Shown in pieces: positions 3,515 through 63,301 of a DNA stretch of 64,000 nucleotides (positions within the stretch are counted from its first letter, which is position 1; the number at the start of each line of letters is the position of its first letter). Source of the stretch: Parafannyhessea umbonata. GTDB taxonomy: Bacteria > Actinomycetota > Coriobacteriia > Coriobacteriales > Atopobiaceae. Made by a program: the position numbers and the translations under genes. The stretch spans positions 186,001-250,000 of the forward strand of contig NZ_JABAGR010000001.1 in assembly GCF_012844235.1 (NCBI RefSeq). The letters run 5' to 3'. The notes beneath the pieces were generated by a model. The model was not told the DNA's origin, did no database searches, and saw nothing but the letters and a program-made list of their open reading frames with translations.

Positions 3515-5737
3515 TTACAGGTGAAGCACGCGGTCCCTGATCTCCTGCGTGCGGCCCTGGTTCCAGTACTGGGTGCCGATGTAGCCGCAGGTGCGACGTG
3601 CGACGTTCATCTTGGACTGGTCGCGGTTGCCGCAGTTGGGGCACTCCCATACGAGCTTGCCATCGTCCTCCACGATTCTGATCTCGCCGTCGTAGCCGCA
3701 GACCTGGCAGTAGTCGCTCTTGGTGTTGAGCTCGGCGTACATGATGTTGTCGTAGATGAACTGCATGACCTTCACGACCGCCTCGAGGTTGTCCTGCATG
3801 TTCGGGACCTCGACGTAGCTGATGGCGCCGCCGGGGGAGAGACGCTGGAACTTGGACTCGAAGGCGAGCTTGCTGAAGGCGTCGATGTGCTCGGTCACGT
3901 GCACGTGGTAGGAGTTCGTGATGTAGCCCTTGTCCGTGATGCCGGGGATGACGCCGAAGCGGCGCTGGAGGCACTTCGCGAACTTGTAGGTGGTGGACTC
4001 GAGGGGCGTGCCGTACAGGGAGTAGTCGATGTTCTCGGCGGCCTTCCACTCCGCGCACCTGTCGTTCATGTGCTGCATGATGGCAAGGCCGAGCTCCTCG
4101 CCCTCGGGGTCGGTGTGGCTGTGGCCCGTGAGCGCCTTCACGCACTCGTACAGCCCGGCGTAGCCAAGGCTGATGGTGGAGTAGCCGCCGTAGAGCAGGG
4201 AGTCGATCTTCTCGCCCTTGTCGAGGCGTGCGAGCGCGCCGTACTGCCACAGGATCGGCGCGGCGTCGGAAAGCGTGCCGCACAGGCGGTCGTGGCGGCA
4301 GCGCAGGGCCTTGTGGCACAGGTCGAGCCGCTCGTCGAAGATCTTCCAGAACTTGTCGACGTCACGGTCGGCGGACAGCGCGACGTCCGGCAGGTTGATG
4401 GTGACGACGCCCTGGTTGAAGCGACCGTAGTACTTCGGCTTGCCCGGCTCGTAGTTCTTGGCGCGGGCCACGTTGTCGTAGCCGTTGCCAGAGCGGTCCG
4501 GGGTGAGGAAGGAGCGGCAGCCCATGCAGGTGTACACGTCGCCGTTGCCCTCGGTCTCGCCCTTGGACAGCTTGTACTCGCGCATCTTCTTCTCGGAGAT
4601 GTAGTCGGGCACCATGCGCTTTGCCGTGCACTTCGCCGCAAGCTTCGTGAGGTAGAAGTACTCGTCGCCCTCGTGGACGTTGTCCTCCTCCAGCACGTAG
4701 ATGAGCTTGGGGAACGCAGGGGTGATCCAGACGCCGGCCTCGTTCTTCACGCCCTGGTAGCGCTGCTTCAGCATCTCCTCGATGCAGAGGGCGAGGTCGT
4801 GCTTCTCCTGCGGGTTCTGGGCCTCGTTGAGGTACATGAACACGGTGATGAACGGCGCCTGGCCGTTGGTGGTCATGAGGGTGACGACCTGGTACTGGAT
4901 GGTCTGGACGCCGCGTGCGATCTCGTCGTGCAGGCGCTTCTCGACGATCTGGTCGATCTTGTCGGTGCCGGGGTGCGCGTCGATGGCCTCCATCTCGGCG
5001 TAGACCTGGCGACGGATCTTCTTGCGCGACACGTCGACGAACTTGGCGAGGTGGTAGAGCGAGATGGACTGGCCACCGTACTGGCAGGACGCCACCTGGG
5101 CGATGATCTGCGTCGCGATGTTGCATGCGGTGCTGAAGCTGTGGGGCTTCTCGATCATGGTGCCGGAGATGACGGTGCCGTTCTGCAGCATGTCGTCGAG
5201 GTTCACGAGGTCGCAGTTGTGCATGTGCTGCGCGAAGTAGTCCGCGTCGTGGAAGTGGATGATGCCCTCCTCGTGGGCCTTCACCACGTCCTCGGGGAGC
5301 AGCTCGCGCATCGCGAGGTCCTTGGAGACCTCGCCGGCCATGTAGTCGCGCTGGACGGACACGACGGTGGGGTTCTTGTTGGAGTTCTCCTGCTTGACCT
5401 CCTCGTTGTTCGCCTCGATGAGGCTGAGGATCTTGTCGTCCGTCGTGTTCTTCTGGCGCTTCTGGTTCTGCACGTAGCGGTAGATGATGTACTTGCGGGC
5501 GACGGTGAAGCGGTCGAGGGCCATGAGCTGGTCCTCGACGAGGTCCTGGACCTCCTCGACGGTCACGGTGTGGCCTGCGTCCGCGCACTCGTCCTGCACG
5601 TTGTAGGACGCGAACTTGACCTCGCGGTCCGAGAGCTGCTCGTCGGCGGGGGCCTCGGCGTTCGCGGCCTTGATGGCGTTCACGATCTTCTGAACGTCAA
5701 ACTCGACCTCGGAACCGTTCCTCTTGATGATCTTCAT
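3515..5737 (-). CDS. nrdD: Anaerobic (class III) ribonucleoside-triphosphate reductase
   Basis: This 740-residue enzyme reduces ribonucleoside triphosphates to deoxyribonucleotides using a glycyl radical, in the cytoplasm, under anaerobic conditions. Residues 1 to about 95 form an ATP-cone allosteric domain (MKIIKRNGSEVEFDVQKI). The C-terminus has the glycyl radical loop RTCGYIG, with the radical glycine at about 718. Before it is the zinc site with cysteines at about 677, 680, 699 and 702. MGCRSFLTPDRS in the middle is a typical active-site cysteine loop. GAGAGG lies before the ATG. A NrdR-like box and a promoter lie about 395 bases upstream, implying a long leader. The activase nrdG is downstream beyond a toxin-antitoxin pair. 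One copy of the GGGCGAGAAGNNC word is in frame as KGEKI at 4208-4217. Confidence 0.97.
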   Translation of the reverse strand: MKIIKRNGSEVEFDVQKIVNAIKAANAEAPADEQLSDREVKFASYNVQDECADAGHTVTVEEVQDLVEDQLMALDRFTVARKYIIYRYVQNQKRQKNTTDDKILSLIEANNEEVKQENSNKNPTVVSVQRDYMAGEVSKDLAMRELLPEDVVKAHEEGIIHFHDADYFAQHMHNCDLVNLDDMLQNGTVISGTMIEKPHSFSTACNIATQIIAQVASCQYGGQSISLYHLAKFVDVSRKKIRRQVYAEMEAIDAHPGTDKIDQIVEKRLHDEIARGVQTIQYQVVTLMTTNGQAPFITVFMYLNEAQNPQEKHDLALCIEEMLKQRYQGVKNEAGVWITPAFPKLIYVLEEDNVHEGDEYFYLTKLAAKCTAKRMVPDYISEKKMREYKLSKGETEGNGDVYTCMGCRSFLTPDRSGNGYDNVARAKNYEPGKPKYYGRFNQGVVTINLPDVALSADRDVDKFWKIFDERLDLCHKALRCRHDRLCGTLSDAAPILWQYGALARLDKGEKIDSLLYGGYSTISLGYAGLYECVKALTGHSHTDPEGEELGLAIMQHMNDRCAEWKAAENIDYSLYGTPLESTTYKFAKCLQRRFGVIPGITDKGYITNSYHVHVTEHIDAFSKLAFESKFQRLSPGGAISYVEVPNMQDNLEAVVKVMQFIYDNIMYAELNTKSDYCQVCGYDGEIRIVEDDGKLVWECPNCGNRDQSKMNVARRTCGYIGTQYWNQGRTQEIRDRVLHL

Positions 5738-6287: not shown

Positions 6288-6836
6288 ATGGCACAGGCGG
6301 AGGGCACCTACGATGAGGCGCTGGTTCGCGCGGAGTACGCGGATCTCACGCGCGAGCTCATTGCGCGCGGGCTTGAGGTGAGCACGATGGAGAGCGCCAC
6401 GAGCGGCCAGATAGCGTCGCTCATAACGGACACGGAGGGCGCGTCGGCCGTGCTGAGGGGCGCGTACGTTACGTACTGCAACGACGCGAAGGTCAAGTGC
6501 GGCGTGCCGGCCGAGGTCATCCGCGAGCACACCGTCTACTCCACCCAGACGGCCGAGGCCATGGCGCAGGCGTGCCGCAGGTCGTACGCCGCGAACATCG
6601 GCATCGGCGTGACGGGCACCATGGGAAACGTCGACCCCGCGAACCCCGCGGCCTCGACTCCCGGCGAGGTCTACTTCGCCATCTGCCTGGGCACGGGCAA
6701 GGACGCCCAGGGCGAGAAGAACCACAGCTACCACGTGCATCTCGCTCCGCAGCCGTCGCGGCTCATGTACAAGCTCGCGGTTGCGAAGGAGGTCCGGGAC
6801 AGGCTGGTGGTCCTTCTCGCCGAGGCGGGGGCGTAG
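6288..6836 (+). CDS. CinA C-terminal-domain protein, nicotinamide-nucleotide amidohydrolase family
   Basis: The 182-residue protein matches the CinA C-terminal (PncC) domain alone. STMESATSGQIASLITDTEGAS is the typical serine-containing start. GAYVTYCNDAKVKCGVP and GIGVTGTMGNVDP with PGEVYFAICL are the other family blocks. The enzyme deamidates nicotinamide mononucleotide in pyridine-nucleotide recycling. The ATG at 6288 is preferred over an in-frame ATG at 6267 because the ribosome site GAGAGG lies between them. The family name comes from competence/damage-inducible operons in other bacteria. A GGGCGAGAAGNNC word lies in frame as QGEKN at 6710-6719. Confidence 0.85.
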   Translation: MAQAEGTYDEALVRAEYADLTRELIARGLEVSTMESATSGQIASLITDTEGASAVLRGAYVTYCNDAKVKCGVPAEVIREHTVYSTQTAEAMAQACRRSYAANIGIGVTGTMGNVDPANPAASTPGEVYFAICLGTGKDAQGEKNHSYHVHLAPQPSRLMYKLAVAKEVRDRLVVLLAEAGA

Positions 6837-6847
6837 CCGCCGGGGGC

Positions 6848-8728
6848 TTAGTCTAGCTCGCGCTTGCCGGTGCAGAGCTGCCAGTACTCGCCGCGCTGGG
6901 CCAGCAGCTCCTCGTGCGTGCCGCGCTCCACGATGCGGCCGTGCTCCAGCACCATGATGGCGTTCGCGTTGCGCACGGTGGAGAGCCGGTGCGCGATCAC
7001 GAACACGGTGCGCCCGCGCATGAGGGCGTCCATGCCGCGCTCGATGAGGGCCTCGGTGCGCGTGTCGATGGAGGACGTCGCCTCGTCCAGAATGAGGACG
7101 GGCGGGTCTGACACCGCGGCGCGCGCGATGGCTATGAGCTGGCGCTGTCCCTGCGAGAGGTTGGCGCCGTCGGACGTGATCCTGGTGTCGTAGCCGTTGG
7201 GGAGCCTCTGTATGAACGAGTCCGCGTTTGCGATGCGCGCGGCGTGGCGCACCTCGTCATCCGTGGCGTCGAGCTTGCCGAAGCGGATGTTGTCCGCGAC
7301 GGTGCCGCTGAACAGGTGCGTGTCCTGCAGCACGATGCCCAGGGTGGAGCGCAGGTCGTCCTTGCGGATGTCCCTCACGTCGATGCCGTCGTAGGTGATG
7401 GAGCCGGAGCGCACGTCGTAGAAGCGGTTTATGAGGTTGGTGATCGTGGTCTTGCCCGCGCCTGTGGACCCCACGAACGCGATCTTCTGGCCGGGCTTCG
7501 CGTAGAGCGAAAGGTGCGAGAGCACCGTCTGCCCGTCCTCGTAGCCAAAGGTGACGTCGTCCAGGCGCACATCGCCCGCAAGGGGCACGGCCCCGCCGCC
7601 CGGGAGCACCCAGCGCCATCCGGCCGCGCCGGCCGCCATGCGACGGGGGAGGTCCTTCTCGCCCGGCGCGCCCTCGCCTCCAGCGAGTTCCGCGTCGTGT
7701 GCGTGCTGCACCACGACCTTGCCCTCGTCCACCTCGGGCGGAAGCTCCATCACGGAAAACACGCGCTCCGCGCCGGCAAGCGCCGTGAGCACGAAGTTGC
7801 CAAGCTGCGTGAGCTGGTTGAGGGGCATGGTGGCCTGGCGCACGAACACCAGGTACGAGGCGAGGCTGCCCACGTCGGTCTGGCCGGCGATTGCCATCAT
7901 CGCGCCGAGCACGGCGACGGCGGCGTAGTTGACGTAGCCGATCACGACGGTGCTGGGCACCATGGTGAGGGCGTAGGCCTGCGCGCTGGTCCCCGTGCGG
8001 CGCAGGTCCTGGTTGAGGCGGCGGAAGCCGGCGAGGTTCGCGCCCTCGTGGTTGAAGACCTTCACGACCTTCTGGCCGGACATCATCTCTTCCACGTAGC
8101 CGTCCAGCGCGCCGAGCGTGGTCTGCTGCGCGGCGAAGTAGCGCTTGGAGCGCCTGCCCGAGAAGCGCGTGTACAGCACCACGACCGCGTCGCACGCGAG
8201 CGTCACGAGGGTGAGCCGCCAGTTGAGCACCAGCAGCAGCACCAGGGTGCCCACCGTCTGCACCGCCGCCTGCATCATGTTGGCGAAGCTGTTGTTGAGC
8301 GCCTCGCTTATGGTGTCGACGTCGTTGGTGAAGTAGCTCATCACGTCGCCGTTGCGCGTGCGGTCGAAGAACGACACCGGCAGGCGCATGATGTGGCCAA
8401 ACAGGTCGCGGCGGATGTCGAACACGATGTGCTGCGCCGCGTGCACCATGACCTGCGTGTACGCGAGCGCCGCCGCCACGGCCACCGCGTAGATGGCCGC
8501 CGTCGCCGCGACGTCCGCCGTGAAGCCCGCCGCGTCGCCGGCGGCGATGCGGTTCACGACCGGCTTGATCATGTACGTTCCCGCGAGGTTGCCCGCGCCC
8601 GCGACCGTCACCAGCACGGCCACGGCGAGCATGTGGAACTTCGCATGTCCCATGTAGCCCACGAACGTCCTCATGGTGCGGCGCATGTCCTTGGGCCGCG
8701 CGCCGCCCGATGCCTTACTCTGCGCCAT
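6848..8728 (-). CDS. ABC exporter half-transporter, subunit 2 of a heterodimer
   Basis: The roughly 626-residue protein has a six-helix exporter membrane domain and a C-terminal nucleotide-binding domain. The latter shows Walker A GSTGAGKTT, signature LSQGQRQ, and Walker B ending VLILDEATSS with the catalytic glutamate. Its partner is the overlapping upstream ABC gene, and a MarR regulator heads the operon. The linker between membrane and ATPase domains carries an unusual Gly/Ala-rich insert of about 45 residues containing APGEKDLP, encoded by the GGGCGAGAAGNNC word at 7655-7664. The ATG at 8728 overlaps the partner's stop by 14 bases; other ATGs at 8734 and 8737 are possible. The likely role is drug, peptide or lipid efflux; the substrate is unknown. 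Confidence 0.92.
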   Translation of the reverse strand: MAQSKASGGARPKDMRRTMRTFVGYMGHAKFHMLAVAVLVTVAGAGNLAGTYMIKPVVNRIAAGDAAGFTADVAATAAIYAVAVAAALAYTQVMVHAAQHIVFDIRRDLFGHIMRLPVSFFDRTRNGDVMSYFTNDVDTISEALNNSFANMMQAAVQTVGTLVLLLVLNWRLTLVTLACDAVVVLYTRFSGRRSKRYFAAQQTTLGALDGYVEEMMSGQKVVKVFNHEGANLAGFRRLNQDLRRTGTSAQAYALTMVPSTVVIGYVNYAAVAVLGAMMAIAGQTDVGSLASYLVFVRQATMPLNQLTQLGNFVLTALAGAERVFSVMELPPEVDEGKVVVQHAHDAELAGGEGAPGEKDLPRRMAAGAAGWRWVLPGGGAVPLAGDVRLDDVTFGYEDGQTVLSHLSLYAKPGQKIAFVGSTGAGKTTITNLINRFYDVRSGSITYDGIDVRDIRKDDLRSTLGIVLQDTHLFSGTVADNIRFGKLDATDDEVRHAARIANADSFIQRLPNGYDTRITSDGANLSQGQRQLIAIARAAVSDPPVLILDEATSSIDTRTEALIERGMDALMRGRTVFVIAHRLSTVRNANAIMVLEHGRIVERGTHEELLAQRGEYWQLCTGKRELD

Positions 8729-10457: not shown

Positions 10458-10942
10458 CACAGCGCCTCCTTGTCGGGGGCGGTGCCGCGGTTCGCGCGCC
10501 GCAGGTTCGCGTGGATGCGGCCTAGGTAGTCCTGCAGCCGGGCCACCTCCTCGGGCGAGAAGCCCGCGAGCATGGTCGCGCCCTCCTCGTCGCAGCACCG
10601 GTCCCACTCGGCCAGGGCAGCCCTGCCCTCCCCGGTGACCTCCGCAAGCCTGGTGCGACGGTCTTCTCCCCGTGTCATGCGCACGAAGCCGCTCTGGCTG
10701 AGCGAGGCGAGCATGCGGCTGACGGCCGCGGGGTCAAGCTCGAAGTACTCCGCGAGCGCCCGCTGGCTGCACGGGCCGTTTACGCGCAGGTATCCCAGGA
10801 TCTTGGGCTGGCCCGGCCCCAGGCCGATCTTGGCCATTCGCGGCCGCAGGTAGTTTGTCTGCGCATGTAGCGCGCGGTAGAGCATCATGTGCGTGTCGCT
10901 GAGGGAGCGTCCCTCTGACGGCACGTCGGTCTGTTGCTGCAT
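10457..10942 (-). CDS. MarR-family transcriptional regulator of the ABC exporter operon
   Basis: The 161-residue protein has the MarR winged helix: ILGYLRVNGPCSQRALAEYFELDPAAVSRMLASLSQSGFV with the wing MTRGEDRRTRLAEVT. I placed the start at the ATG at 10942, preceded by AAGGAGAGG. The ATG at 10960 lies inside an operator palindrome and lacks a ribosome site. It is the first gene of a coupled operon with the two exporter subunits. Three TTGAC-type palindromes upstream suggest autorepression relieved by an exported compound. One GGGCGAGAAGNNC word (10553-10562) is read here on the opposite strand as Phe-Ser-Pro. Confidence 0.92.
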   Translation of the reverse strand: MQQQTDVPSEGRSLSDTHMMLYRALHAQTNYLRPRMAKIGLGPGQPKILGYLRVNGPCSQRALAEYFELDPAAVSRMLASLSQSGFVRMTRGEDRRTRLAEVTGEGRAALAEWDRCCDEEGATMLAGFSPEEVARLQDYLGRIHANLRRANRGTAPDKEAL

Positions 10943-15878: not shown

Positions 15879-15887
15879 GCGTATTTG

Positions 15888-16934: not shown

Positions 16935-17064
16935 GCGAACAGAGTACTACACCTGCGACCAAGGGGGCGGGCTCTTCTCGCCCGGGCGAGGCGCTTGGGA
17001 TGCGGTGATGAGGGCATAATCTTTCCTGGACGGCGCGGGTGCGCCGGGCTGGGAGGCTTGTGCT

Positions 17065-18900
17065 ATGTCGGACGTGCGATTTGGGACTGAGGCTGCGGGC
17101 GGCTTTGGCGGGGCAGGCGACCTTGGCGGGGCGGACGGCCCTGCCAGGGCGGTTGACGCAATCGAGGCGATACTGGCGAGGCCTCGCGACGAGGTGCTCG
17201 CGCAGTGCCGGCGCTATGTGGTGGGGCAGGAGGACGTGCTCCGCGAGGTGGTGGGACTGACGTACTCGTGCCTGCAGCGCATGGAGATGCGCGCCCGCGG
17301 CGTGGACGACCTGGACCTGCCCCGCGCGTGCGCGTTCATGCTTTCGGGCAGCACGGCGAGCGGCAAGAGCTTCGTGATGAAGGTGGTCGCGAAGGTCATG
17401 GGGCTTGAGCTGGTGAGCATAGACTGCTCTGGCATCACGGGCGCCGGATGGGTTGGCGACTCCGTGAGCAGCGAGCTGAGGCGCGTGGCCGGCGTGATGG
17501 AGAAGGACGACGGCCGCCCGGTGCTCGCGTTCTGGGACGAGGCCGACAAGCTGGTTCGCAAGACGCGCGAGGGCGGCCGGAGCTTTGACAGCCAGGGGAA
17601 CTTCCTGAAGCTTTTGGACGGCGGGACGCTGGAGCTGGCGCCGGAGGCCCAGGGCCAGCGCGAGGTGACCCTGGACGCGGGGCGCGTGCTGAACGTGTTT
17701 GCCGGCGCGTTCATGGGGATCGAGGGCATCGTGCGGAAGCGCCTGCTGAGCGGCGGGCTCGAGCTTGCGGGCGCGGGCTCTGTGGCGCCGGGGCTTCTGA
17801 CCACGGACCAGCTGCGGGCGCGCATGAACCTGCAGGACCTGGTGAGCTGGGGGTTCATGCCGGAGTTTGTGGGGCGCTTTGGCGCGGTGGTGTGCGTGCC
17901 GGCGCTGACGTGCGCAAACCTTCGGCAGATCGTGAAGGGTTCCGAGCGGAGCCTGGAGCGTCGCGTGAGCAACCTGCTGGGCGCCGGCCGCGCGTTCAGG
18001 ATCTCTGACGCGGCCGCGGACGCGATCGCCCGCGAGGCGCACGAGAGCGGCTTGGGCGCGCGCAGGATCGACCAGGTGGCAAACCACTTTGAGGCGGAGG
18101 CGACCGTGCGCCTGCACGCGGACGACTCCGTGAACGTGGCGACGCTGGACGTGGACGCGGACGGCGGCCTGTGCCTTGCGTTTGGCTTTGACGAGGACGT
18201 GGCGGAGGGCGCGGACGGCGCGCTGGGCGCGGGCGATGCCGCCGGCACGGCGGGTGCGGGCGAGAAGGACAACCCCGTGGCCGGCGACGTGGCCGTGGAG
18301 GCCGGCGCAAGCAGGTTCGAGCCGAACGAGCGGCTGATTGCGGCCGTGGACGGCGCGATGGCCGGCGCGCGCTGGGCGGACGCGGCCGCAACGGCGGAGG
18401 GGCGCGAGCTTCTGGCCAGGCGCCTGGCGCACTACCAGCGCTGGCGCGTGCGCGACGCAAGGTCCGTGGACGCGGCGGAGCTGCTGCTTGAGGCGGTGAG
18501 CGGCTACCTTGCCGTGAACCGCGACCCGGACATGAGGCAGACGCTGGGCTACGTGTGCGCACTGCTGCGCTTTGCGGACATTGGCATGCGCGACGGCTGG
18601 ACGTACTTGGACACGCTGTTCTTTGGGCGTGTGGAGGTGTGCGGGCTGCGCGGCCTTGAGGAGCGTGCGAGCTTTGACCCCGCGTACTGCAGCTGTGACG
18701 TGGTGCGTGCGCTGAGCTGCTATAGGCGCTACCTTGCGTTTCCGGATGCGGTGCGCAGGGAGGCCGTGGGCCTGGCACAGGCGCGTGCCACGGACGCCGC
18801 GACGTCTGCGCGGGAGGCGGCGTGGCTGCGCGCGGACGTGAACGGCGTGGCGGACGCCGTGGACAAGGAAGCCCCCGCGGGCATGACGCTCATGTTCTAG
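17065..18900 (+). CDS. ClpX-like AAA+ ATPase without zinc domain and with novel C-terminal extension
   Basis: The 611-residue protein follows ClpX in its AAA+ core: RYVVGQEDVLREVV, Walker A GSTASGKS near residue 95, Walker B VLAFWDEADK near 153, LNVFAGAFMGIEGIV and LVSWGFMPEFVGRF. The N-terminal zinc-binding domain of ClpX is absent, replaced by a short Gly/Ala-rich tail. After the AAA small domain a low-complexity linker (about 372-410, with AGAGEKDN encoded by the GGGCGAGAAGNNC word) leads to a helical domain of about 200 residues that I do not recognise. ClpX unfolds proteins for ClpP; whether this paralogue still docks on ClpP is unclear. GGGAGG precedes the ATG. A separate true clpX is presumably elsewhere. 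Confidence 0.8.
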   Translation: MSDVRFGTEAAGGFGGAGDLGGADGPARAVDAIEAILARPRDEVLAQCRRYVVGQEDVLREVVGLTYSCLQRMEMRARGVDDLDLPRACAFMLSGSTASGKSFVMKVVAKVMGLELVSIDCSGITGAGWVGDSVSSELRRVAGVMEKDDGRPVLAFWDEADKLVRKTREGGRSFDSQGNFLKLLDGGTLELAPEAQGQREVTLDAGRVLNVFAGAFMGIEGIVRKRLLSGGLELAGAGSVAPGLLTTDQLRARMNLQDLVSWGFMPEFVGRFGAVVCVPALTCANLRQIVKGSERSLERRVSNLLGAGRAFRISDAAADAIAREAHESGLGARRIDQVANHFEAEATVRLHADDSVNVATLDVDADGGLCLAFGFDEDVAEGADGALGAGDAAGTAGAGEKDNPVAGDVAVEAGASRFEPNERLIAAVDGAMAGARWADAAATAEGRELLARRLAHYQRWRVRDARSVDAAELLLEAVSGYLAVNRDPDMRQTLGYVCALLRFADIGMRDGWTYLDTLFFGRVEVCGLRGLEERASFDPAYCSCDVVRALSCYRRYLAFPDAVRREAVGLAQARATDAATSAREAAWLRADVNGVADAVDKEAPAGMTLMF

Positions 18901-19012
18901 CCGGGGCGCGCGGCTGTGCCGTTGACGTGGGGGTTTGCTGCCAAGGCGGTACGTTCTTCTCGCCCATGCGTATGCTATACAGAGATTGGATATCGCGGAC
19001 GGGAGGCATGCG

Positions 19013-28639: not shown

Positions 28640-28843
28640 TATCGGCCCGCGGGTGCGGGCACGATGGCGCGCCGCAGGGGCACGGGGAGCTACCGTCCAC
28701 GCATGCGCCCGCGGGGAAAGGGTCTTGTTCTTCTCGCCCGCCGTATACTTCTAGGTGCGGTTTCTTGACGGCTTGGCAAGGCGGGCCGGCGGGGCGGCGT
28801 CGCGCGGACGCGCTTTCGGCCCGACGACTGACCTGGAGGTCAC

Positions 28844-36198: not shown

Positions 36199-37161
36199 AT
36201 GAGAAGAGCAACCACCGCGCTCGCGAGGACCACCGCGGTCGCATGCGCAGGCGCCGTCGCGACCGCCGCCCTGGTGTCGCCGCGCAAGAACGACTCGTAC
36301 GTGGACGCCCGCTGGGGCAAGATCCGCCAGCACCGCTTTGCCCACCGCGGCCTGCACGACCGCGACCTAGGCATCCCAGAAAACTCGCTCTCGGCGTTCC
36401 GGCGCGCCCGCGACCTGGGCTTTGGCGTGGAGCTCGACGTCCACCTCACCGCGGACGGCCAGCTTGCGGTCATTCACGACGCCAGCACGCGGCGCATGTG
36501 CGGACGCGCCCTCACGGTCGAGAAGAGCACCCTGCAGGACCTGCGCGAGCTTTGCCTGGACGGCACGGACGAGCGCATCCCCACCTTCGACGAGGCGCTT
36601 TCCGTGTTCGATGCGGACTGCGAGGGCGACGCGGACCCGCTGCCGCTCATCGTGGAGGTGAAGACCGAGGGCGCCGCGTGGCCGCGCGTGGCGGAGCTCT
36701 GCCACAAGACCATGGACGAGCTCGATTGCCACTGCGTCAGCTACTGCGTGGAGAGTTTCGACCCGCGCGTGCTGGTGTGGCTGCGCCGCCACCGCCCAGA
36801 GGTCGTCCGCGGCCAGCTGAGCAAGGACTACCTCGCAGCAACGTCCGCAAAGTCCGCGGCGTCCGCCCGCACGGGCGAGAAGAGCGCGCCCGCGCACCGG
36901 CAGGCCCTGGCCTCCGTCTGCACCGCCGCGCGCGACGCGGCTGCGACGTCCATGGTCGCAAACTCCCTTGCGCGGCCGGATTTCGTTGCGTACAAGTTCG
37001 CGGACCGCGCGACACCCGCGTTCAGGCTGGTTCAGGCCCTGGGCGCGAAGCCCGTGTTCTGGACCATAAAGAACCCGCAGGACCTTGCCGCCGCCGAGAC
37101 TGAGGGTGGCGTCGCCATATTCGAGGGCTTCGTGCCGGATTCCACCCACGCCCAGGTGTAG
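36199..37161 (+). CDS. Glycerophosphodiester phosphodiesterase-family protein with N-terminal membrane anchor
   Basis: The 320-residue protein has an N-terminal hydrophobic stretch (ALARTTAVACAGAVATAALVS) that can be an anchor or signal. The GDPD domain follows: HRFAHRGLHDRD, PENSLSAFRRA, GVELDVHLTADGQLAVIHD and VEVKTEG. It hydrolyses glycerophosphodiesters to glycerol-3-phosphate and an alcohol. An Ala/Ser-rich insert near residues 215-240 contains ARTGEKSAPA, encoded by the GGGCGAGAAGNNC word at 36873-36882. The start follows AGAAGGGA. Confidence 0.88.
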   Translation: MRRATTALARTTAVACAGAVATAALVSPRKNDSYVDARWGKIRQHRFAHRGLHDRDLGIPENSLSAFRRARDLGFGVELDVHLTADGQLAVIHDASTRRMCGRALTVEKSTLQDLRELCLDGTDERIPTFDEALSVFDADCEGDADPLPLIVEVKTEGAAWPRVAELCHKTMDELDCHCVSYCVESFDPRVLVWLRRHRPEVVRGQLSKDYLAATSAKSAASARTGEKSAPAHRQALASVCTAARDAAATSMVANSLARPDFVAYKFADRATPAFRLVQALGAKPVFWTIKNPQDLAAAETEGGVAIFEGFVPDSTHAQV

Positions 37162-39239: not shown

Positions 39240-39342
39240 CAAAACCTCCGAACGAGCGTCCGGGCGCCCCGGGCCGGCGGCCGCGGGCGCCAACCAGCGT
39301 TGAGCCTCACATCCGTGCGCGCGGCAGCCGCGGGCGCACGTA

Positions 39343-39408
39343 CTTCTCGCCCACATGCCGCATGCGCCCCTAGTCTAGCGGCTTTCCTGCGCCCGTCTGG
39401 GCGAGAAG
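39343..39408. repeat. Facing pair of GGGCGAGAAG words in the icd/lacI divergent region
   Basis: ACTTCTCGCCCA (39342-39353) and TGGGCGAGAAGT (39398-39409) are perfect 12-base inverted copies, 44 bases apart. The pair could form a hairpin in either transcript. The rest of the 39240-39540 gap holds only the LacI-type operator listed next. Confidence 0.8.
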
Positions 39409-39437
39409 TGCCGCGCCACGTCGTTTTGTAGCGCAGA

Positions 39438-40566: not shown

Positions 40567-40668
40567 TGGTGCGGGGCGCGTGCCGGAAGGACGGGAGGCC
40601 GCTGACCGGGAGCGCGCTGGGCGAGAAGTGCGCTAGGCGAGAAGTGCGCGGCCTTTGGGCCAGGCATG

Positions 40669-41496: not shown

Positions 41497-43794
41497 CTAC
41501 TGTTGCGCGGCAGCGCGTCCAAGCCACGCCGGCTGCTCCGCGCTGATGATGCGGGCGCACACGCGGGCGCGGTCCAGGCTCATGATGGTGACGCCCTGGT
41601 AGTTGCCAGAGGGCTGCGGCGCAAGCACGAGCGCGCAGTCCGCCTGCGAGTCGCTTACCAGGCACAGCGGCAGCAGCAGCCTGACGGAGTCCGTCGTGGG
41701 GTCGAACGCGGGCGCCGCGATCCGATAGCTCGCGCGAACGCGGCACAGCGTGAGGGCGAGCGCCTCGTCCAGCGCGCGGCCAAGCCTGCGATACAGGCCG
41801 GGATCGGACTTGATGGCGCGCGCAAGTAGGGCCAGGTCCTTCTCGCCCGCGGGGGTGCCCTCCTGCGCCACGGCCTTTGCCAGCAGGTCGCGCGCCGTTG
41901 GCGACGCCTGCAGCTCGTCCTCCAGGAACGCGCGGGGCAGCACGCCCAGGCGGTGCGTGAGGATGGCGTCCGTGTCCAGCACGGCCAGGCGGCTGGTATC
42001 CGGCGTAACGTCGCCCAGGTCGCGCAGGTAGCTTACGGGTCGGGGCAGGGGGTCGAGCTTCGCCACGAGCTCGCCGCCCAGCTCGCCGGAGCCCGCGACG
42101 CAGAACCCGGCGGACTTCCAGCGGATGTCGCCCCTGTTGGGCGTGAAGCACGCGTAGATGTCCTGGCCGAACGGGGTGAAGAGCCCGGTGTCGAACGCGG
42201 CGAGCGAGCCGTCGGCCGCCTGTGCCACCAGGCCCTGCGCCATGGCGCGGTGGAACGTGACGCACAGGTACTCGCGCAGGATGCCGTAGCGGCTGGGCCT
42301 GCCGACGCCCTCGCCGGGGAAGTCCCAGTGCTCCGGCGCCGCCATGGTAGCGAGTGCGCCGAGGTAGGACTCCCACGAGCCCACCATCGCAAAGCGCGCG
42401 AGCTCGCGGATGGGGCTCGTGGCGGTGGTGCCGCGCGCCGGGCCGGAAAGCTCGCTCCACGCGCCCTCGTCCACCGTGGGCAGGCCCTCGATTCCCACGG
42501 GCTCGTGCATGGCGCCCGTGCCGTCGTCGCCGTCGATGCAGCTGATGCTCCAGCGCTTGCCGGCGCTGGCCTTGGCGGAGCGCTTCAGCGTGATGGTGAC
42601 GGGCGTGCCGTCGTCCTCGTGCAGGTAGCGCAGGGGGAAGGTCACGCGGCTGCGCGTGCCGGTCAGAAGCGCCGTCGAGCGGGCGACGCTCCAGTCCTCG
42701 TCCAGCACGCCCATGACGTCCACGTCAAGTGGCAGCATCTGGTACAGCGCGCGCAGGAACTCGTCCTTGCAGTGGACGTCGAGCGATATGGTCTGCGGCA
42801 GGTCTGACTGGGCGCTGAGGGCGGGGCCCTCCGGCTGCGTCGCGACGTCGCGCGCCTGCGGTACGGGGCGCGCGGGCACGGCGGGACGCTGGTCCTCGAA
42901 CGAGAAGCTTCCCTCCGCGGGCAGCGACCCCTCGGGCACGGGCTCCTCGTCCTGCGTCGGGTCGTAGGTGATGGTGAGCGAGATGGACGGGGCGTCCTCG
43001 ACCACGGGCGCGGCCTTGGGCTCAGGCGCGGCCTCGGCCGCGGCGTCCGGGCTCTTCTCGCCCGCGGGCGGCTGCGCGGCGGGGGCGGGCTGCGGCTCGG
43101 GCTCCGCCTGCGGCGCGGCTTCCGGCTTGGGCTCTGGCATGGGCTCCGCCTGCGGCGTTGCAGCGGCTGCGTCCGCCTCGGTCGTGGGGTCGTACGTGAT
43201 CGTGAGCCTGATGCCCTCGTGGTCCGGCGCGGCGGTCGCGGGCGTCGCCTTGGAGGGCGTCGCCTCCGTCGGAGAGGCCTCCGCGGGCGTCGCCTCGCCC
43301 TTGGCAGCGGGTGCGTGCTGCGGCAGCGGCGCCTCGTCCTTCTCGCCCGTCGGGCTTGCCGGCTCCTCCGCGTGCTGCGCGGCAGCCTTCGCCACGGGCT
43401 CCGGCTCTGCCTTTGGCGCCTGCCTCGGCTTCTTGTGGCGGGGCTTTGCGGGCTTTGCCACCTTTGCCGACTTCTTGCGCTTCCAGGACTTGCCGTTCTG
43501 CACGGCCTTCTTCTGCGCGGAGGGGGCCTCGGCCGCGGCAAGCGCGGCGTCCAGCTCCGGGCTCGCCAGCAGCGTCGCGTACGTGCGGCCCTTCTTGAAC
43601 ACGGTCAGCTTCACCATGTCGTCCAGGGCGCCCAGCAGCTCCGTCACGTCCTTGCAGTCAAGGTCGTCCGGGGCTATGTCGTCTGCTGCCAGCACCTCCT
43701 CGAAGCGCTGTATGCGCTCCTGCCTTCCGGTCCCGATCTGGTTCTTGAAGAGGCGGTACAGGTACAGGCGGTTGCCTGCGGTGATTCTGGACAT
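41497..43794 (-). CDS. DUF3825-domain protein with long low-complexity linker
   Basis: The 765-residue protein has a helical N-terminal domain (1 to about 80, MSRITAGNRLYLYRLFKNQIG), a basic Lys/Pro segment, then a long Ala/Pro/Glu linker (about 110-380). The linker holds a repeated short motif, IRLTITYDPTTE, ISLTITYDPTQDE and ISLDVHCKDE. The C-terminal half resembles DUF3825: AAPEHWDFPGEG, YGILREYLCVTFHRAMAQG, FDTGLFTPFGQDIYACFTPN. DUF3825 proteins are of unknown function. Three GGGCGAGAAGNNC words fall in frame, two in the linker (PAGEKSP, PTGEKDE) and one near 650 (PAGEKDL). AGGAAGG precedes the ATG. Confidence 0.7.
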   Translation of the reverse strand: MSRITAGNRLYLYRLFKNQIGTGRQERIQRFEEVLAADDIAPDDLDCKDVTELLGALDDMVKLTVFKKGRTYATLLASPELDAALAAAEAPSAQKKAVQNGKSWKRKKSAKVAKPAKPRHKKPRQAPKAEPEPVAKAAAQHAEEPASPTGEKDEAPLPQHAPAAKGEATPAEASPTEATPSKATPATAAPDHEGIRLTITYDPTTEADAAAATPQAEPMPEPKPEAAPQAEPEPQPAPAAQPPAGEKSPDAAAEAAPEPKAAPVVEDAPSISLTITYDPTQDEEPVPEGSLPAEGSFSFEDQRPAVPARPVPQARDVATQPEGPALSAQSDLPQTISLDVHCKDEFLRALYQMLPLDVDVMGVLDEDWSVARSTALLTGTRSRVTFPLRYLHEDDGTPVTITLKRSAKASAGKRWSISCIDGDDGTGAMHEPVGIEGLPTVDEGAWSELSGPARGTTATSPIRELARFAMVGSWESYLGALATMAAPEHWDFPGEGVGRPSRYGILREYLCVTFHRAMAQGLVAQAADGSLAAFDTGLFTPFGQDIYACFTPNRGDIRWKSAGFCVAGSGELGGELVAKLDPLPRPVSYLRDLGDVTPDTSRLAVLDTDAILTHRLGVLPRAFLEDELQASPTARDLLAKAVAQEGTPAGEKDLALLARAIKSDPGLYRRLGRALDEALALTLCRVRASYRIAAPAFDPTTDSVRLLLPLCLVSDSQADCALVLAPQPSGNYQGVTIMSLDRARVCARIISAEQPAWLGRAAAQQ

Positions 43795-46912: not shown

Positions 46913-47767
46913 CTACAGATGCCGGTCGAAGTGCCCCTTGCGGGCAAGGTTTCTCAGGTTGATGACGGTGCCCTGCATGCCATGGGGAATGTAGTCCATG
47001 TGCTCCAGGTCGTCCGGAAGGTAGTCCACAAGGCTCAGCGGCATGGTCTGGCGCACGTGGCCGTCCGCGTCCAGGTCGGGCTCGCGCGCGGGGTCCGGCG
47101 TCGCCTCAATGGCCAGGACCTTCGCCCCCTGCGCGCACAGCCGGCGCTCGTACCAGCTCATGGGGTCGTCGGGCCGCTCCGAGCGCGCGTCCGTGGATTC
47201 CCACAGCGTGCGGAAGCCGGCAAGCGCCAGCTGCCCGCGCGTGAACTCCCACAGCGGGGAGCTGTCCGTCTTCAGCGTCACCACGCCGCCCGGGGCCAGC
47301 AGGCGCCGGTAGCGCACCAGGTTGTCCGCGTGCGTCAGGCGCTGCCACGCCTCCTTCTTGCGCGGGAACGGCGTGGGGAAGTTCAGGATCACCTGGCTCA
47401 GCTCGCCGGGCGAGAAGTACTGCTCCAGCTTGCTGGCCACGCCGGGCGCAAACACCGCGTTCGCCGCCCCGGCCTCCTGCGCCCGCTGAGCCGCGTACGC
47501 AATGCAGATCGGCTCCAGGTCCACGCCCACAAACAGCGTGCCCGGCTCGCGCTTGGCCGTCTCCACGGTCGAGGCTCCCTTGCCGCAGCCCATGTCCAGC
47601 ACCACGCGGTCGTAGCGCGCGTGCGGCGTCGCCGCGTCAAGCGGGTGGCAGGCCTCCGCCCAGCGTCCCGCGTAGGAGGCGGGGCTCGCCTCTATGGAGT
47701 CCGCGTAGCGCTCGAGCCGCTCCTCGAGGACGAAGTTCTTCGGTAGCCTTGCGTGAAGGGCGTGCAT
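46913..47767 (-). CDS. trmB: tRNA (guanine-N7)-methyltransferase
   Basis: The 284-residue protein has the TrmB motifs: VVLDMGCGKGASTVETAKREP binding SAM, FVGVDLEPICIAYAAQ, and VILNFPTPFPRKKEAWQRLTH, the family's NFPDPWPKK block. VTLKTDSSPLWEFT and SWYERRL complete it. It methylates guanine-46 in tRNA. The C-terminal 60 residues extend beyond the usual length. It lies 23 bases after the ABC exporter and is probably co-transcribed. A GGGCGAGAAGNNC word (47408-47417) reads here on the opposite strand as Phe-Ser-Pro. Confidence 0.92.
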   Translation of the reverse strand: MHALHARLPKNFVLEERLERYADSIEASPASYAGRWAEACHPLDAATPHARYDRVVLDMGCGKGASTVETAKREPGTLFVGVDLEPICIAYAAQRAQEAGAANAVFAPGVASKLEQYFSPGELSQVILNFPTPFPRKKEAWQRLTHADNLVRYRRLLAPGGVVTLKTDSSPLWEFTRGQLALAGFRTLWESTDARSERPDDPMSWYERRLCAQGAKVLAIEATPDPAREPDLDADGHVRQTMPLSLVDYLPDDLEHMDYIPHGMQGTVINLRNLARKGHFDRHL

Positions 47768-49803: not shown

Positions 49804-49884
49804 GCGTGAAATTGGTGCATGGTGGAGGGGGCGGTGCGGCCAACGCCGCCAGCCTCGCCCGCGGGCGAGAAGGACGCGCGGACC

Positions 49885-51357: not shown

Positions 51358-51634
51358 GAGAATCCACCAACCTCTCTGGCCGTGGCGCGGGCGAGATTGC
51401 ATGTACGTCGTCCTGGCGCCGCGGCTGCCTCGAGCGGGGCGCGTATGCGCCCCAATCTTCCCATTGGTGGGATTCTAGCCTTTTGGGGAAGGTAGTCCCA
51501 TTCTTTTTTAAAACGGGGTCAAAATTGAACTGACGCGGCCACATTCGTTCAAAACAAGACAGATTAGAGCAAATCTGTACAATAACGCACGAATTGGCTC
51601 GCACCCGCTTGGTGGCCCTTCTCGCCCGAGGCGC

Positions 51635-56177: not shown

Positions 56178-57215
56178 ATGGGCTTCTGGTCGTATCTTGT
56201 CGACAGGTTCGCGATAGTGCTGTGCCTGGCGGCCGGGGTGCTGCTATCGGGGCTGGCCCTTCTCGCCCACGGCGTGGACGTGCGGGCGTTTGGCGAGGTA
56301 GCGTGCATAGTGGGCGCGTGCGCCCTCGTGGGGCTGCTGCTTGACTGGCTGCGGCGCCGGGAGTTTTTCTGCCGGCTGCGCGAGGCGCTGGACGCGCTTG
56401 ACAGCAAGTACCTGGCCAGCGAGCTGGTGGGAAGGCCGACCACCCTGGAGGGGCGGCTTATGTATGACGCGCTCGCACGCGAGTCGAAGGCTATGACGGA
56501 CGAGGTGGAGGCCGCGCGCTTGGCGCAGCGCGAGTACCGCGACTACGTGGAGACGTGGATTCACGAGGTGAAGACCCCCATAGCGGCGGCGCGCCTTGTG
56601 GCGCAGAACCATCCCGACGACGCGACGGCCGCCATGGACCGCGAGCTTGTGCGCATAGAGGGATATGCGGAGCAGGCGCTGTATTATGCGCGGAGCACCT
56701 CGGTCGACCGCGACTTCGCCATCCGCAGAGTGGACCTGGGCGAGCTGGTGCGCGGCGCCCTGAGGGCGAACGCTCGGACGCTGATTGACGCGCACATGGC
56801 CCCTGAGCTGGGAGACCTTGACTTTGAGGTCCGCTGCGACCCGAAGTGGCTGACGTTCGTGCTTGGGCAGGTCCTTGTGAACGCCGCGAAGTACCGCAAG
56901 CCCGCGGGGCCGGACGGCGTGCTCGAGCCGGCGCGTCTGCGCATTGTGGCGGAGCGTAGGCTGAGCGACGCGGACGCGCGCGTCACGGTGCTGAGCGTTG
57001 CCGACGAGGGGATCGGCATCCCCGCGGAGGACGTGGACCGCGTGTTTGACAGGGGCTTTACCGGCCAGAACGGCCGCCGCTTTGCAAAGTCGACCGGCAT
57101 AGGCCTCTACCTGGTGCGGAGCCTGTGCCAGAAGATGGGGCTTCGCGTGACGCTTGCGTCGCGGGTCGGCCGCGGCACCACCGTGAGCATCGAGTTTCCG
57201 GACTCGGGCAGGTAG
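56178..57215 (+). CDS. BceS/VirS-type intramembrane-sensing histidine kinase
   Basis: The 345-residue kinase has two closely spaced N-terminal membrane helices (about 11-30 and 37-56) with almost no external loop. That is the hallmark of Bce-type kinases, which sense through a partner ABC transporter. YVETWIHEVKTPIAAARL carries the phospho-histidine near 128, and VNAAKYRKPAG, SVADEGIGIP and STGIGLYLVRSL form the ATPase domain. The ATG at 56178 is chosen; no strong ribosome site is evident. A GGGCGAGAAGNNC word (56259-56268) lies in TM1. The transporter is not adjacent but about 3.2 kb downstream. Confidence 0.92.
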   Translation: MGFWSYLVDRFAIVLCLAAGVLLSGLALLAHGVDVRAFGEVACIVGACALVGLLLDWLRRREFFCRLREALDALDSKYLASELVGRPTTLEGRLMYDALARESKAMTDEVEAARLAQREYRDYVETWIHEVKTPIAAARLVAQNHPDDATAAMDRELVRIEGYAEQALYYARSTSVDRDFAIRRVDLGELVRGALRANARTLIDAHMAPELGDLDFEVRCDPKWLTFVLGQVLVNAAKYRKPAGPDGVLEPARLRIVAERRLSDADARVTVLSVADEGIGIPAEDVDRVFDRGFTGQNGRRFAKSTGIGLYLVRSLCQKMGLRVTLASRVGRGTTVSIEFPDSGR

Positions 57216-57272
57216 CGCGGCGGGCTGACGCTGGGCTGACGTCCGCGGTGCATGCCGGCGCCGCCGGCCGCC

Positions 57273-60465: not shown

Positions 60466-61245
60466 ATGGAAACCGTCCTTCAGGTACACAACGTGCAGAA
60501 GTACTACGGCTCGAAGGGCCGCGGCATGGGGACCGCCATGACGAAGGCGCTCGACGGCGTGAGCTTCGACGTGCGCACCGGCGAGTTCATCGCGATCATG
60601 GGCACGTCCGGCTCCGGCAAGTCCACGCTGCTCAACTGCATCTCCACCATCGACCGCCCCACGTCCGGCCAGATCGTGGTCGACGGCCGCGACGTCACCG
60701 GCATGAGGCAGAAGGACCTCTCGCGCTTCCGCCGCGAGCGCCTCGGCTTCGTGTTCCAGGACTCCAACCTGCTCGATACCCTCACGGGCGAGGAAAACAT
60801 CGCCCTCGCGCTCACGATCAACCGCGTGAGCCCGAAGGAGATCCCCGGCCGCGTGGAGCAGGTCGCTGCGATGCTGGACGTGGCGGACGTGCTGAAGAAG
60901 TACCCGTACCAGATGTCCGGTGGCCAGCGCCAGCGCATCGCGTGCGCGCGTGCCATCGTCACCAGGCCGGCCATCGTACTTGCGGACGAGCCCACTGGCG
61001 CGCTCGACTCCAAGAACTCGCGCCTCCTGCTCGGCAGCCTCGCGGACCTCAACCGCCAGGGCGCCACCATCCTCATGGTCACGCACGACTCGTACGCCGC
61101 CAGCTGGTCCGGCCGCGTGCTCTTCATAAAGGACGGCCGCATCTTCAACGAGCTCTCGCGCGGCGACGAGTCCCGCCAGCAGTTCTTCCAGAAGATCATG
61201 GACGTCGTGAGCTTCATGGGTGGGGAGGCGGCAGATGTACGCTAG
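60466..61245 (+). CDS. BceA-type ABC transporter ATPase
   Basis: The 259-residue ATPase has Walker A GTSGSGKST, Q-loop VFQDSNLLDTLTGEENIALAL (typical of the MacB/BceA group), signature MSGGQRQR and Walker B IVLADEPTGALDS. AAAAGGAGAAG precedes the ATG. Together with the overlapping permease it forms a Bce-type module that removes or detaches cell-wall antibiotics such as bacitracin or lantibiotics and signals to the kinase. Confidence 0.95.
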   Translation: METVLQVHNVQKYYGSKGRGMGTAMTKALDGVSFDVRTGEFIAIMGTSGSGKSTLLNCISTIDRPTSGQIVVDGRDVTGMRQKDLSRFRRERLGFVFQDSNLLDTLTGEENIALALTINRVSPKEIPGRVEQVAAMLDVADVLKKYPYQMSGGQRQRIACARAIVTRPAIVLADEPTGALDSKNSRLLLGSLADLNRQGATILMVTHDSYAASWSGRVLFIKDGRIFNELSRGDESRQQFFQKIMDVVSFMGGEAADVR

Positions 61246-63301
61246 GATCGCCCTCGGCAACGTCCGTCGCTCCATCAAGGACTTCGGCATCTACTTCCTC
61301 ACGCTCGTGCTCGGCGTCGCCGTGTACTACGCGTTCAACTCCGTCACGCAGCAGAGCGCGGTGCTCAGCCTCTCGGGCAGCATGAGCACCATCGTGCGGG
61401 AGCTCGGCGCGATCATCAGGGCCGTCTCCGTCTTCGTGGCCGTGCTCCTTACGTTCCTCGTCCTGTTCGGCAACCGCTTCCTCATCCGTCGCCGCAAGCG
61501 CGAGTTCGCCATCTACCTCACGCTCGGCATGGACCGCCGCCACGTGTCCGGCATCGTCGCGATGGAGTCGCTCGTCGTCGGCGCGGGCGCGCTCGTCGTC
61601 GGCCTCGCCGTGGGCGTGCTGCTGTCACAGGCGCTGCTCTACGCTACGGCGCGCCTGTTCAACACCCACGTCACGGGCTTCGGCCTCATGTTCAGCAGCC
61701 AGGCCTGCGTCTACACCGTCGTGAGCTTCGCCATCATCTTCCTCGTCGTCGGCGTCCTCAACGTGCTCGAGGTCTCGCGTTTCAAGCTCATCGACCTCAT
61801 GAACGCGGACCGCAAGGGCGAGAAGAGCCTCGTCCGCAACCTGCCGCTTTCCGTCGCGCTGTTCGTCGTCTCGCTCGTGCTCATCGGCGTCGCGTACCAC
61901 GAGCTGCGCGTGAACGGAATGTACGTGATCGACTGGCGTTTCAACCTCGCGACCGCCCTCGTCACCGTGGGTACGTTTCTGCTGTTCTTTAGTGTCTCGG
62001 GCTTCCTGCTGCGCCTGGGGCAGTCCGCACGCGGCTTCTACCTGCACGGTCTCAACATGTTCACGCTGCGACAGCTCTCCAGCCGCGTCAATAGCGTCTG
62101 GGTCTCCATCTCCATCGTGTGCGCGGCGCTCTTCCTTGCCATCACGTCCACGTGCGGCGGCTTTGCCCTCGTCAGCTCCATCAACCAGAGCGTGAGCGCC
62201 ATCACCCACTACGACGTGAGCGTCGCCATGTATCCCCAGGCCACCGATGACGCCTCCGCCTCGGTCGAGACAACCCAAGGCGCCAGTGGCAGCGAGATGG
62301 AAAAGCTCCTCAAAGCATCCGTGCCAGACTGGGACTCCCTCGTCGCGGACTCCGCCCGCATCGACCTCTACACGGACTCCAGCATGCGCCTGAGCCTGGC
62401 CGCGCTGCGCGGGGACACCGACGTCGAGGTTCCTGACAGCTTTACCAAGTATACAAACTCCCTCGGCAAGGTCCCCATCCACGTCACCTCGCTCTCGCAG
62501 TACAACGCGATCCTCGCCCTGCGCGGAGAGAAGCCGGTCGTCCTCAAGGCCAACGAGGCCCTCGTGACCACGGACATGACCAACATGGTCGGCTTCTGGC
62601 AGCGCGTCGCCGTCAAGAGTGACGGCTTCGACTTCCTCGGCACCACCATGCGCCTGCGTGCGCGCCGCACCACGATGGAGTACTCGAACGCCGTCAACAC
62701 CAGCGTCGGTACGATCGTTGTGCCAGACGGCGTCCTCGAGTCCAAGCGTGCCCAGCTCGAGTCTTTCTCCAATTACCTCAACGTGAAGGCCAGGGACTCC
62801 CGCGCAGAGGCCCGCCTGTACAAGGAGGTCGCGAGGGCGCACCAGCCGGGGCTGCTGTTCGAGGCGCAGTCCAAGTCCTCCGCAAAGGAGGAGGCCGTCG
62901 GCCTCACCGCCATCATCGGCTACCTTGCGCTCTACATCGGCTTCGTCCTGTTCGTCAGCTGCGCGGCGATCCTCGCCATCCAGCAGCTCAGCGACGTGGC
63001 GGAAAGCGCACCGCGCTACCGGGTGCTCTTCGACCTCGGTGCCGAGCGCGGCATGGTCAACCACGCCATCCTCATGCAGATCGCCACGTACTTCCTGTTC
63101 CCGCTCGTCGTGGCGCTCGCGCACTCCTACGTGGCGCTCGGCGTCCTCGGCAGCGTCATCAAGACCCTGGGCGTGCTCGACTTTTTGCGCCCCCTTGGCA
63201 TCACCATGGCCATCGTCCTCGTGCTGTATGGAGGCTACTTCCTCCTCACGTACGGCATGGCGCGCGGCGTCCTGGGCGAGAAGGCCCGGCGCCGCGAGTA
63301 G
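61235..63301 (+). CDS. BceB-type permease (FtsX-like domains)
   Basis: The 688-residue permease has ten predicted helices with two FtsX-type domains, RRSIKDFGIYFLTLVLGVAVYY at the start and a long extracytoplasmic region (about 330-545) between helices 7 and 8. That large loop is the marker of BceB and is used to sense antibiotics. The ATG at 61235 follows GGGGAGG and overlaps the ATPase stop by 11 bases. Two GGGCGAGAAGNNC words lie in frame as GEK (61816 and 63274). Size and domain order match the family. Confidence 0.95.
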   Translation: MYARIALGNVRRSIKDFGIYFLTLVLGVAVYYAFNSVTQQSAVLSLSGSMSTIVRELGAIIRAVSVFVAVLLTFLVLFGNRFLIRRRKREFAIYLTLGMDRRHVSGIVAMESLVVGAGALVVGLAVGVLLSQALLYATARLFNTHVTGFGLMFSSQACVYTVVSFAIIFLVVGVLNVLEVSRFKLIDLMNADRKGEKSLVRNLPLSVALFVVSLVLIGVAYHELRVNGMYVIDWRFNLATALVTVGTFLLFFSVSGFLLRLGQSARGFYLHGLNMFTLRQLSSRVNSVWVSISIVCAALFLAITSTCGGFALVSSINQSVSAITHYDVSVAMYPQATDDASASVETTQGASGSEMEKLLKASVPDWDSLVADSARIDLYTDSSMRLSLAALRGDTDVEVPDSFTKYTNSLGKVPIHVTSLSQYNAILALRGEKPVVLKANEALVTTDMTNMVGFWQRVAVKSDGFDFLGTTMRLRARRTTMEYSNAVNTSVGTIVVPDGVLESKRAQLESFSNYLNVKARDSRAEARLYKEVARAHQPGLLFEAQSKSSAKEEAVGLTAIIGYLALYIGFVLFVSCAAILAIQQLSDVAESAPRYRVLFDLGAERGMVNHAILMQIATYFLFPLVVALAHSYVALGVLGSVIKTLGVLDFLRPLGITMAIVLVLYGGYFLLTYGMARGVLGEKARRRE

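Follow-up and report, generated by a model that had tools for sequence, protein, structure and literature searches.

A 13-base word dispersed through Parafannyhessea umbonata and other Atopobiaceae is a probable DNA uptake word with genus dialects

The DNA analyzed here, a window of 64,000 nucleotides from contig NZ_JABAGR010000001.1 of Parafannyhessea umbonata (genome G000 below), carries 21 exact copies of the 10-mer GGGCGAGAAG, 10 on the forward and 11 on the reverse strand. An earlier note on this DNA had proposed that the 10-mer belongs to a DNA uptake or tagging sequence, and a recount bears out its description of the window: the number of copies, their strands, and their span (4208 to 63286) are as it gave them. 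All 21 copies are followed by NNC, as it had also said, and all read GGGCGAGAAGNNC, the 13-base form that we call the word; its core is GGCGAGAAGNNC. Eight of the 21 lie outside genes by our own gene calls, the same number as in the earlier note, whose hand estimate of about 0.3 chance copies is close to what we obtained from 100 dinucleotide shuffles (mean, 0.22; maximum, 2). In a test for dispersed repeats, the flanks of the 21 copies proved unrelated, with no homology beyond the word.

The excess holds throughout G000 (2.316 Mb in 27 unoriented contigs). The whole genome contains 565 copies of the word (316 forward, 249 reverse), about one per 4 kb, and 15 copies of the reversed pattern. 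Statistics for G000 were taken from 464 kb, comprising the window and 20 stretches of 20 kb. In this sample GGGCGAGAAG occurs 145 times versus 10.4 expected from an order-4 Markov model and 2.0 from an order-1 model, and it has the top order-4 z-score among 10-mers with at least 20 occurrences; NNC follows 143 of the 145 copies. The word thus exceeds genome-wide dinucleotide and Markov expectations, and codon expectations as well (see the synonymous shuffles below), a check that the earlier note had named. All 21 sampled 20-kb stretches contain it, with 2 to 10 copies each and no regional focus, and its spacing in G000 and in the sister genome G001 shows no regularity beyond that of randomly placed sites. 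Versions with a single mismatch are most numerous for changes in the first three bases, reaching 33 at the third; beyond these they number at most 15 (A to G at the ninth base), with 0 to 1 at the final C. The wider motif is a core of GGCGAGAAG-RR-C preceded by G, with C or T favored one base further upstream and G favored 1 and 3 bases downstream. It is also visible in the intergenic copies alone (n = 89, G000 and G001), and the flank columns of 144 sampled copies have mild preferences only.

The word occupies both genes and spacers. Gene calls come from a home-made gene finder, and we draw on gene-level counts only from G000, G001, G018 (genus g17), and G016 (genus g15); with small training samples the finder misread some genomes (G019, G023), and its numbers for G005 are unused. 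In G000, 40 of 143 copies fall in the 12.5% of sequence that is non-coding, and in G001, 34 of 97 fall in 15.1%; some of these copies may be genic, as the finder missed most Tad genes of stretch L185 (9.2 to 15.9 kb), and a rescue of long open reading frames reassigned 3 of 43 intergenic copies in G000 and 0 of 34 in G001. Among 100 genic copies in G000, 74 are in the commonest frame, GGC-GAG-AAG-NNC, and 24 are antisense. Twenty synonymous shuffles within genes left a mean of 33.0 copies (maximum, 41) versus the actual 100 in G000; the corresponding values in G001 are 18.9 and 23 versus 63. A codon-permuted control, GGGCAAGGAGNNC, has 19 copies in G000 versus 565 for the word, 18 to 25 in the three genomes of the genus, and 0 to 28 in any of 140 family genomes. 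The proteome is marked by the word: the tripeptide GEK occurs 105 times versus 25.7 expected (GKE, 10 times), and GEKD occurs 32 times versus 1.7 expected.

Strand and pairing were examined with the help of G001, a single-contig genome from which 20 stretches of 20 kb were sampled and split by GC skew. Its leading strand holds 51 of 97 copies, and the word therefore has no replication bias there, in keeping with the earlier note, which had called for such a map against the replichores. Of the pairs of neighbors less than 200 bp apart, 11 in G000 and 8 in G001, inverted ones number 10 and 6, respectively (16 of 19 combined). In these two genomes there are seven head-to-head core pairs within 45 bp, six of them between convergent genes, where convergent spacers make up 7.4 of 55.8 kb (G000) and 9.3 of 58.4 kb (G001) of spacer sequence; two of the six, in L021 and L046, are probably one orthologous site. 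Tail-to-tail pairs number five, and four are inside genes. The inverted pair of the window (39340/39399) has a 59-bp spacing, and a same-spaced inverted pair is found in the aligned stretch L059 of G001. In G018, where 340 kb was sampled and a looser core (GGCGAGAANNNC) was used, inverted orientation was seen in 17 of the 19 pairs within 60 bp; non-coding DNA makes up 12.1% of the sequence and holds 71 of the 187 cores. Intergenic enrichment with inverted pairs at terminator positions is therefore seen in G000 and G001, and the pairs and the intergenic share in G018 also. Separately, an inverted cluster of CTGTCAGAT at L046 19156-19545 in G001 contains 8 of the 13 copies of that sequence in the G001 sample.

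Copies of the word are conserved beyond the background between G000 and G001, which we compared over 90 kb aligned at 93% identity. Of the 26 words of G000, 23 are intact in G001, and of the 29 of G001, 23 are intact in G000; the baseline for all ungapped 13-mers, judged by the same 11 positions (n = 29,496), is 57%. Permuted decoy words were kept in 44 of 81 and 44 of 78 cases. Binomial tests place conservation of the word above the baseline (P = 0.0006 and 0.01). Two of the 20 sampled G001 stretches contain no word. One, L051 1-20000 (G001:C1:720001-740000), is a prophage with a portal gene, a weak terminase match, a resolvase, and a phage C-terminal domain; the other, L045 1-20000 (G001:C1:1-20000; 61% GC), carries an AbiEii-type toxin gene, an ABC-type ATPase, and unrecognized genes, and is probably an island. 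By GC content, 5-kb bins have word densities of 0.16 per kb (<65% GC), 0.33 (65 to 71%), and 0.26 (>71%, 7 bins). A search of a viral collection for the hairpin form, as distinct from single words and possibly with records from near relatives excluded, found that form in four stretches, none of which has a core outside the pair.

We next turn to relatives, which share the core and vary the base before it. A scan with a ComEC alignment placed G000 among the Atopobiaceae; of 355 relatives the best 80 were taken, and 78 of these loci were counted (2 under 5 kb were skipped). The best named loci among the 80 belong to Olsenella, Thermophilibacter, Atopobium, and uncultured Atopobiaceae or Coriobacteriaceae. 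In the same set the core is densest (9 to 17 per 22 kb) in Olsenella sp. An290 and An270, Thermophilibacter mediterraneus, Atopobium sp. (UBA1382), and two uncultured Atopobiaceae, and it occurs 5 or 6 times in five further comEC loci. It is absent from the loci of Olsenella profusa F0195 and Atopobium sp. oral taxon 810, occurs 0 to 1 times in Collinsella, and 0 to 2 times in every counted locus from L137 on, mostly outside the class. Across the family, the form with a preceding G reaches at least 100 copies in 48 of 140 genomes, including 3 of 3 in the window's genus (g1), 30 of 31 in g4, and 8 of 8 in g50. Several relatives of similar GC content lack the word. The core is abundant in several genera, and the preceding base is G in g1, T in g15, C in g17, and mixed elsewhere. 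Counts of the G, T, and C forms are 565/55/80 (G000), 555/64/68 (G001), and 782/44/52 (G002) in g1; 81/209/97 in G016, T outnumbering G and C in all five g15 genomes; and 120/186/351 (G018) and 101/80/316 in the two g17 genomes. The A form was counted in the G018 sample only (A 28, C 63, T 42, G 9). G precedes 3% of 71 intergenic cores in G018 (looser core) versus 82% of 89 in G000 and G001.

Other repeated sequences surfaced in the same relatives. In three genomes of word-poor genera (G014, G019, G023; 100 kb each) no 8- to 10-mer had a comparable excess and density. Words of up to 22 per 100 kb in G004 were ruled out as a dispersed word, being clustered repeats of about 33 bp in a few places; the unit contains CGTGGACAAACGGCTC and CCGAAGCGTCCA and occurs in both orientations (e.g., L081 3220-3345, 6574-6730, and 12421-12640; L084 14256-14350). 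G016 has a repeated element with AGTTGTGATA (19 in 340 kb versus 0.4; e.g., L075 1393-1481 and 7135-7223, L076 17924-18012), apparently in near-identical blocks, and G018 has a repeat with CAAATTGGGGACGTGTTC that in several places forms inverted pairs about 100 bp apart (e.g., L088 3350-3457, L221 1862-1998, L222 2208-2318). Within g4, G103 has 84 copies of the G form versus 188 to 555 in the other 30 genomes, with its comEC frame open; this genome may recently have lost its specificity or its competence.

The earlier note had suggested looking for competence genes, and G000 has ComEA, ComEC, DprA, and a Tad locus. The comEC frame is open (C12:340734; Competence and metallo-beta-lactamase domains) and lies directly behind comEA (SLBB and HHH domains), and dprA is at C23:138147. 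The Tad locus, on C24, has SAF/RcpC-like, TadZ-like ATPase, TadA-type ATPase, TadB/TadC-type, Flp pilin-like, and TadE-like genes, of which the RcpC and Flp matches are under Pfam cut-offs; several genes of the locus match nothing. A T2SSF search gave two matches in each of the three genomes of the genus, in G000 as two separate frames, which fits TadB and TadC, and by this search, read from coordinates, there is no two-domain GspF/PilC. Word-rich and word-poor genomes alike keep the Tad locus. comEC was found in 38 of 40 relatives, word-rich or not, and its frame is open in 16 of 16 genomes examined, which makes comEC integrity uninformative as a predictor of word density. A gene for a DUF2207 membrane protein (L187 14493-16403 and orthologues) ends the Tad locus in several Atopobiaceae and lies elsewhere in others; among 11 genomes compared, this family (F07) adjoins the Tad locus in all 6 word-rich ones and in 1 of the 5 word-poor ones. 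As the receptor it was rejected, as it matches 100 of 140 family genomes, word-poor ones included, and only 8 of the 31 genomes in g4, a word-rich genus.

Taken together, these patterns make it likely that the Atopobiaceae (Coriobacteriia, Actinomycetota) have a DNA uptake word, with GGGCGAGAAGNNC as its local dialect; the function is one that we infer from the genomes. The window's genus shows the sequence-visible hallmarks of the DNA uptake sequence (DUS) of Neisseriaceae and the uptake signal sequence (USS) of Pasteurellaceae; g17 has the core, a dialect, the intergenic share, and inverted pairs, and g15 has the core and a dialect without inverted pairs. Under this reading a surface receptor (Tad pilin, minor pilin, or ComEA) would bind word-bearing duplex DNA better, ComEA and ComEC would bring one strand in, and DprA and RecA would recombine it. 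Word-bearing alleles would be imported more often than word-less ones, and copies would therefore accumulate genome-wide; they would follow the receptor as its preference drifts, giving dialects, and paired copies could be reused as terminator-like hairpins. Because word density is independent of comEC presence, specificity would be an addition to a shared machine that lineages can acquire or lose, as in Neisseriaceae, where five genomes had no obvious DUS (PMC3630211).

DUS and USS are short words in hundreds to thousands of copies (PMC2346458), USS are linked to natural competence (PMC2346458, PMC7811141), and Neisseriaceae DUS have permissive intergenic placement, terminator-tied inverted pairs, and a fixed core with dialects, with five Neisseriaceae genomes lacking an obvious DUS (PMC3630211). 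The Atopobiaceae word resembles DUS, whose receptor is ComP, in copy number, intergenic placement, inverted pairs, core with dialects, and word-less family members, and its constant core with a drifting edge recalls the DUS dialects described in the same source. It differs in being unrelated in sequence, in occurring in Actinomycetota, and in having two loose bases before a fixed C; the host differs too, as the T2SSF search of G000, which was not a ComP-directed search, shows only two separate Tad-type genes. With USS it shares a short word in hundreds of copies, but sequence and phylum are unrelated, and the AT-rich flank of USS is not seen around it. Comparable machinery is known from Micrococcus luteus, which transforms in a Tad-dependent way with ComEA/ComEC, a mode considered probable for other Actinobacteria too, and which apparently lacks further genes for type IV pili or type II secretion (PMC4322843). 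Like M. luteus, G000 has ComEA, ComEC, and a Tad locus; unlike M. luteus, which needs two tad loci, it has one TadB/TadC pair that we found. The main text of the M. luteus paper never uses the term "uptake sequence" (PMC4322843).

Several observations weigh against uptake. Word density does not track the machinery examined, comEC being intact in word-poor and word-rich genomes alike, and G103 is word-poor inside a word-rich genus despite its open comEC frame. A receptor sought by gene-content association, with DUF2207 the one candidate tested, was not found. Dialects are not uniform: g4 is mixed, with C-leaning G005 (G/T/C, 419/265/606) versus G-leaning G123 (555/163/199), and G013 and g50 are about even over G, C, and T, a weak dialect. 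In G016 (340 kb) the close pairs number three, none of them inverted, and enrichment in spacers is slight, as non-coding DNA makes up 13.8% of the sequence and holds 22 of 111 cores. The forward and reverse counts of G000 are uneven, and the polarity test covers G001 only because the G000 contigs could not be oriented. The scarcity in mobile DNA rests on two stretches and the GC bins. Finally, we know of no reported transformation in Atopobiaceae. The earlier note had held that absence of the word from relatives with competence genes would speak against uptake, and this is partly what we find: 38 of 40 relatives have comEC, and many lack the word. We do not take this as a refutation, because the Neisseriaceae also include genomes without an obvious DUS (PMC3630211). 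The uptake-type reading of the earlier note is partly supported: the word excess, the lack of skew in G001, and the competence genes agree with it, and the expectation that comEC-bearing relatives would carry the word fails in part.

The main competitor of the uptake reading is a chromosomal protein that binds DNA at hundreds of sites, an abundant nucleoid organizer or regulator whose specificity drifts between genera and which has no part in uptake. It would account for a fixed core with drift, for conservation above that of other 13-mers, and for some intergenic enrichment. We nevertheless judge it unlikely, as 65 to 72% of copies in the G000 and G001 samples are genic and have altered the proteome with GEK peptides, copies occur in every sampled G000 stretch without regional focus, and neither inverted pairs between convergent genes nor absence from a prophage would be expected. 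Comparable chromosomal binding systems known to us have sites in the tens.

A Chi-like recombination hotspot or a polar guide of the FtsK-orienting polar sequence (KOPS) type is still less probable. Chi and KOPS are over-represented chromosomal oligonucleotides that are skewed with replication, and the density of about one per 4 kb resembles that of Escherichia coli Chi; the uneven strand counts of G000 (316 versus 249) also point this way. Unlike them, the Atopobiaceae word is unskewed in G001, where the 51 of 97 leading-strand copies led us to reject such polarity, and inverted pairs would go unexplained. Eleven fixed bases exceed the length of any Chi or KOPS known to us.

An origin as an intrinsic-terminator stem or as a spreading short mobile repeat would explain the inverted pairs between convergent genes, but it is very improbable given that most copies are single and genic and that the window flanks (n = 21) are unrelated. 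A by-product of codon and amino acid usage in a GC-rich genome (Gly-Glu-Lys-X in preferred codons), suggested by the 74 of 100 genic copies in one frame, is refuted as the main cause and has next to no standing otherwise: because many copies are intergenic (40 of 143 in G000) or antisense and genic copies are three-fold above synonymous shuffles, the word stems neither from codon use nor from dispersed repeats, and both the permuted control GGGCAAGGAGNNC and the several word-less relatives of similar GC content agree.

Neisseriaceae and Pasteurellaceae are, as far as we know, the only families with established uptake words, and why such words evolve has therefore been argued from few cases. 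The same two families are those named in one of the studies cited above (PMC7811141). Among the matches listed in an open-access literature search, with most subscription journals outside it, none concerned an uptake word in Coriobacteriia or any Gram-positive bacterium. On balance we lean toward a further independent origin of self-recognizing uptake, with genus dialects, in Actinomycetota and with a Tad pilus instead of a classical type IV pilus. If the uptake reading is true, another phylum, and probably another pilus, would make receptor-word co-evolution testable; many uncultured Atopobiaceae would be predicted to transform naturally, within dialect limits; and adding the word to DNA suggests itself as a practical handle for genetics in the family.

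Positions of the 21 copies of the word in the window, with strand and gene context (gene strand in parentheses)
Feature	Position	Strand	Context
word GGGCGAGAAGNNC	4205..4217	-	in gene 3515-5737(-), sense
word	6710..6722	+	in gene 6288-6836(+), sense
word	7652..7664	-	in gene 6848-8737(-), sense
word	10553..10565	+	in gene 10457-10837(-), antisense
word	16971..16983	-	intergenic, gene calls
word	18258..18270	+	in gene 17065-18900(+), sense
word	18953..18965	-	intergenic, gene calls
word	28727..28739	-	intergenic, gene calls
word	36873..36885	+	in gene 36274-37161(+), sense
word	39340..39352	-	intergenic; left arm of inverted pair with 39399
word	39399..39411	+	intergenic; right arm of inverted pair with 39340
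word	40619..40631	+	intergenic; one-mismatch copy next, at 40635
word	41836..41848	-	in gene 41497-43794(-), sense
word	43051..43063	-	in gene 41497-43794(-), sense
word	43336..43348	-	in gene 41497-43794(-), sense
word	47408..47420	+	in gene 46913-47767(-), antisense
word	49863..49875	+	intergenic, gene calls
word	51615..51627	-	intergenic, gene calls
word	56256..56268	-	in gene 56178-57215(+), antisense
word	61816..61828	+	in gene 61235-63301(+), sense
word	63274..63286	+	in gene 61235-63301(+), sense

Two further features of the window were observed. At 12399-16934 a gene for a large helicase-type protein (PLD, ResIII, and DUF3427 domains) adjoins an HNH endonuclease gene; the region belongs to a 6.4-kb stretch that has no copy of the word and scored poorly in our own gene model, and is probably a defense-type island. 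At 57271-57798, eight copies of GTGTACCGG on both strands occupy an intergenic region of about 530 bp, 26-fold above the Markov expectation for the window, and resemble clustered operator or iteron-like binding sites.

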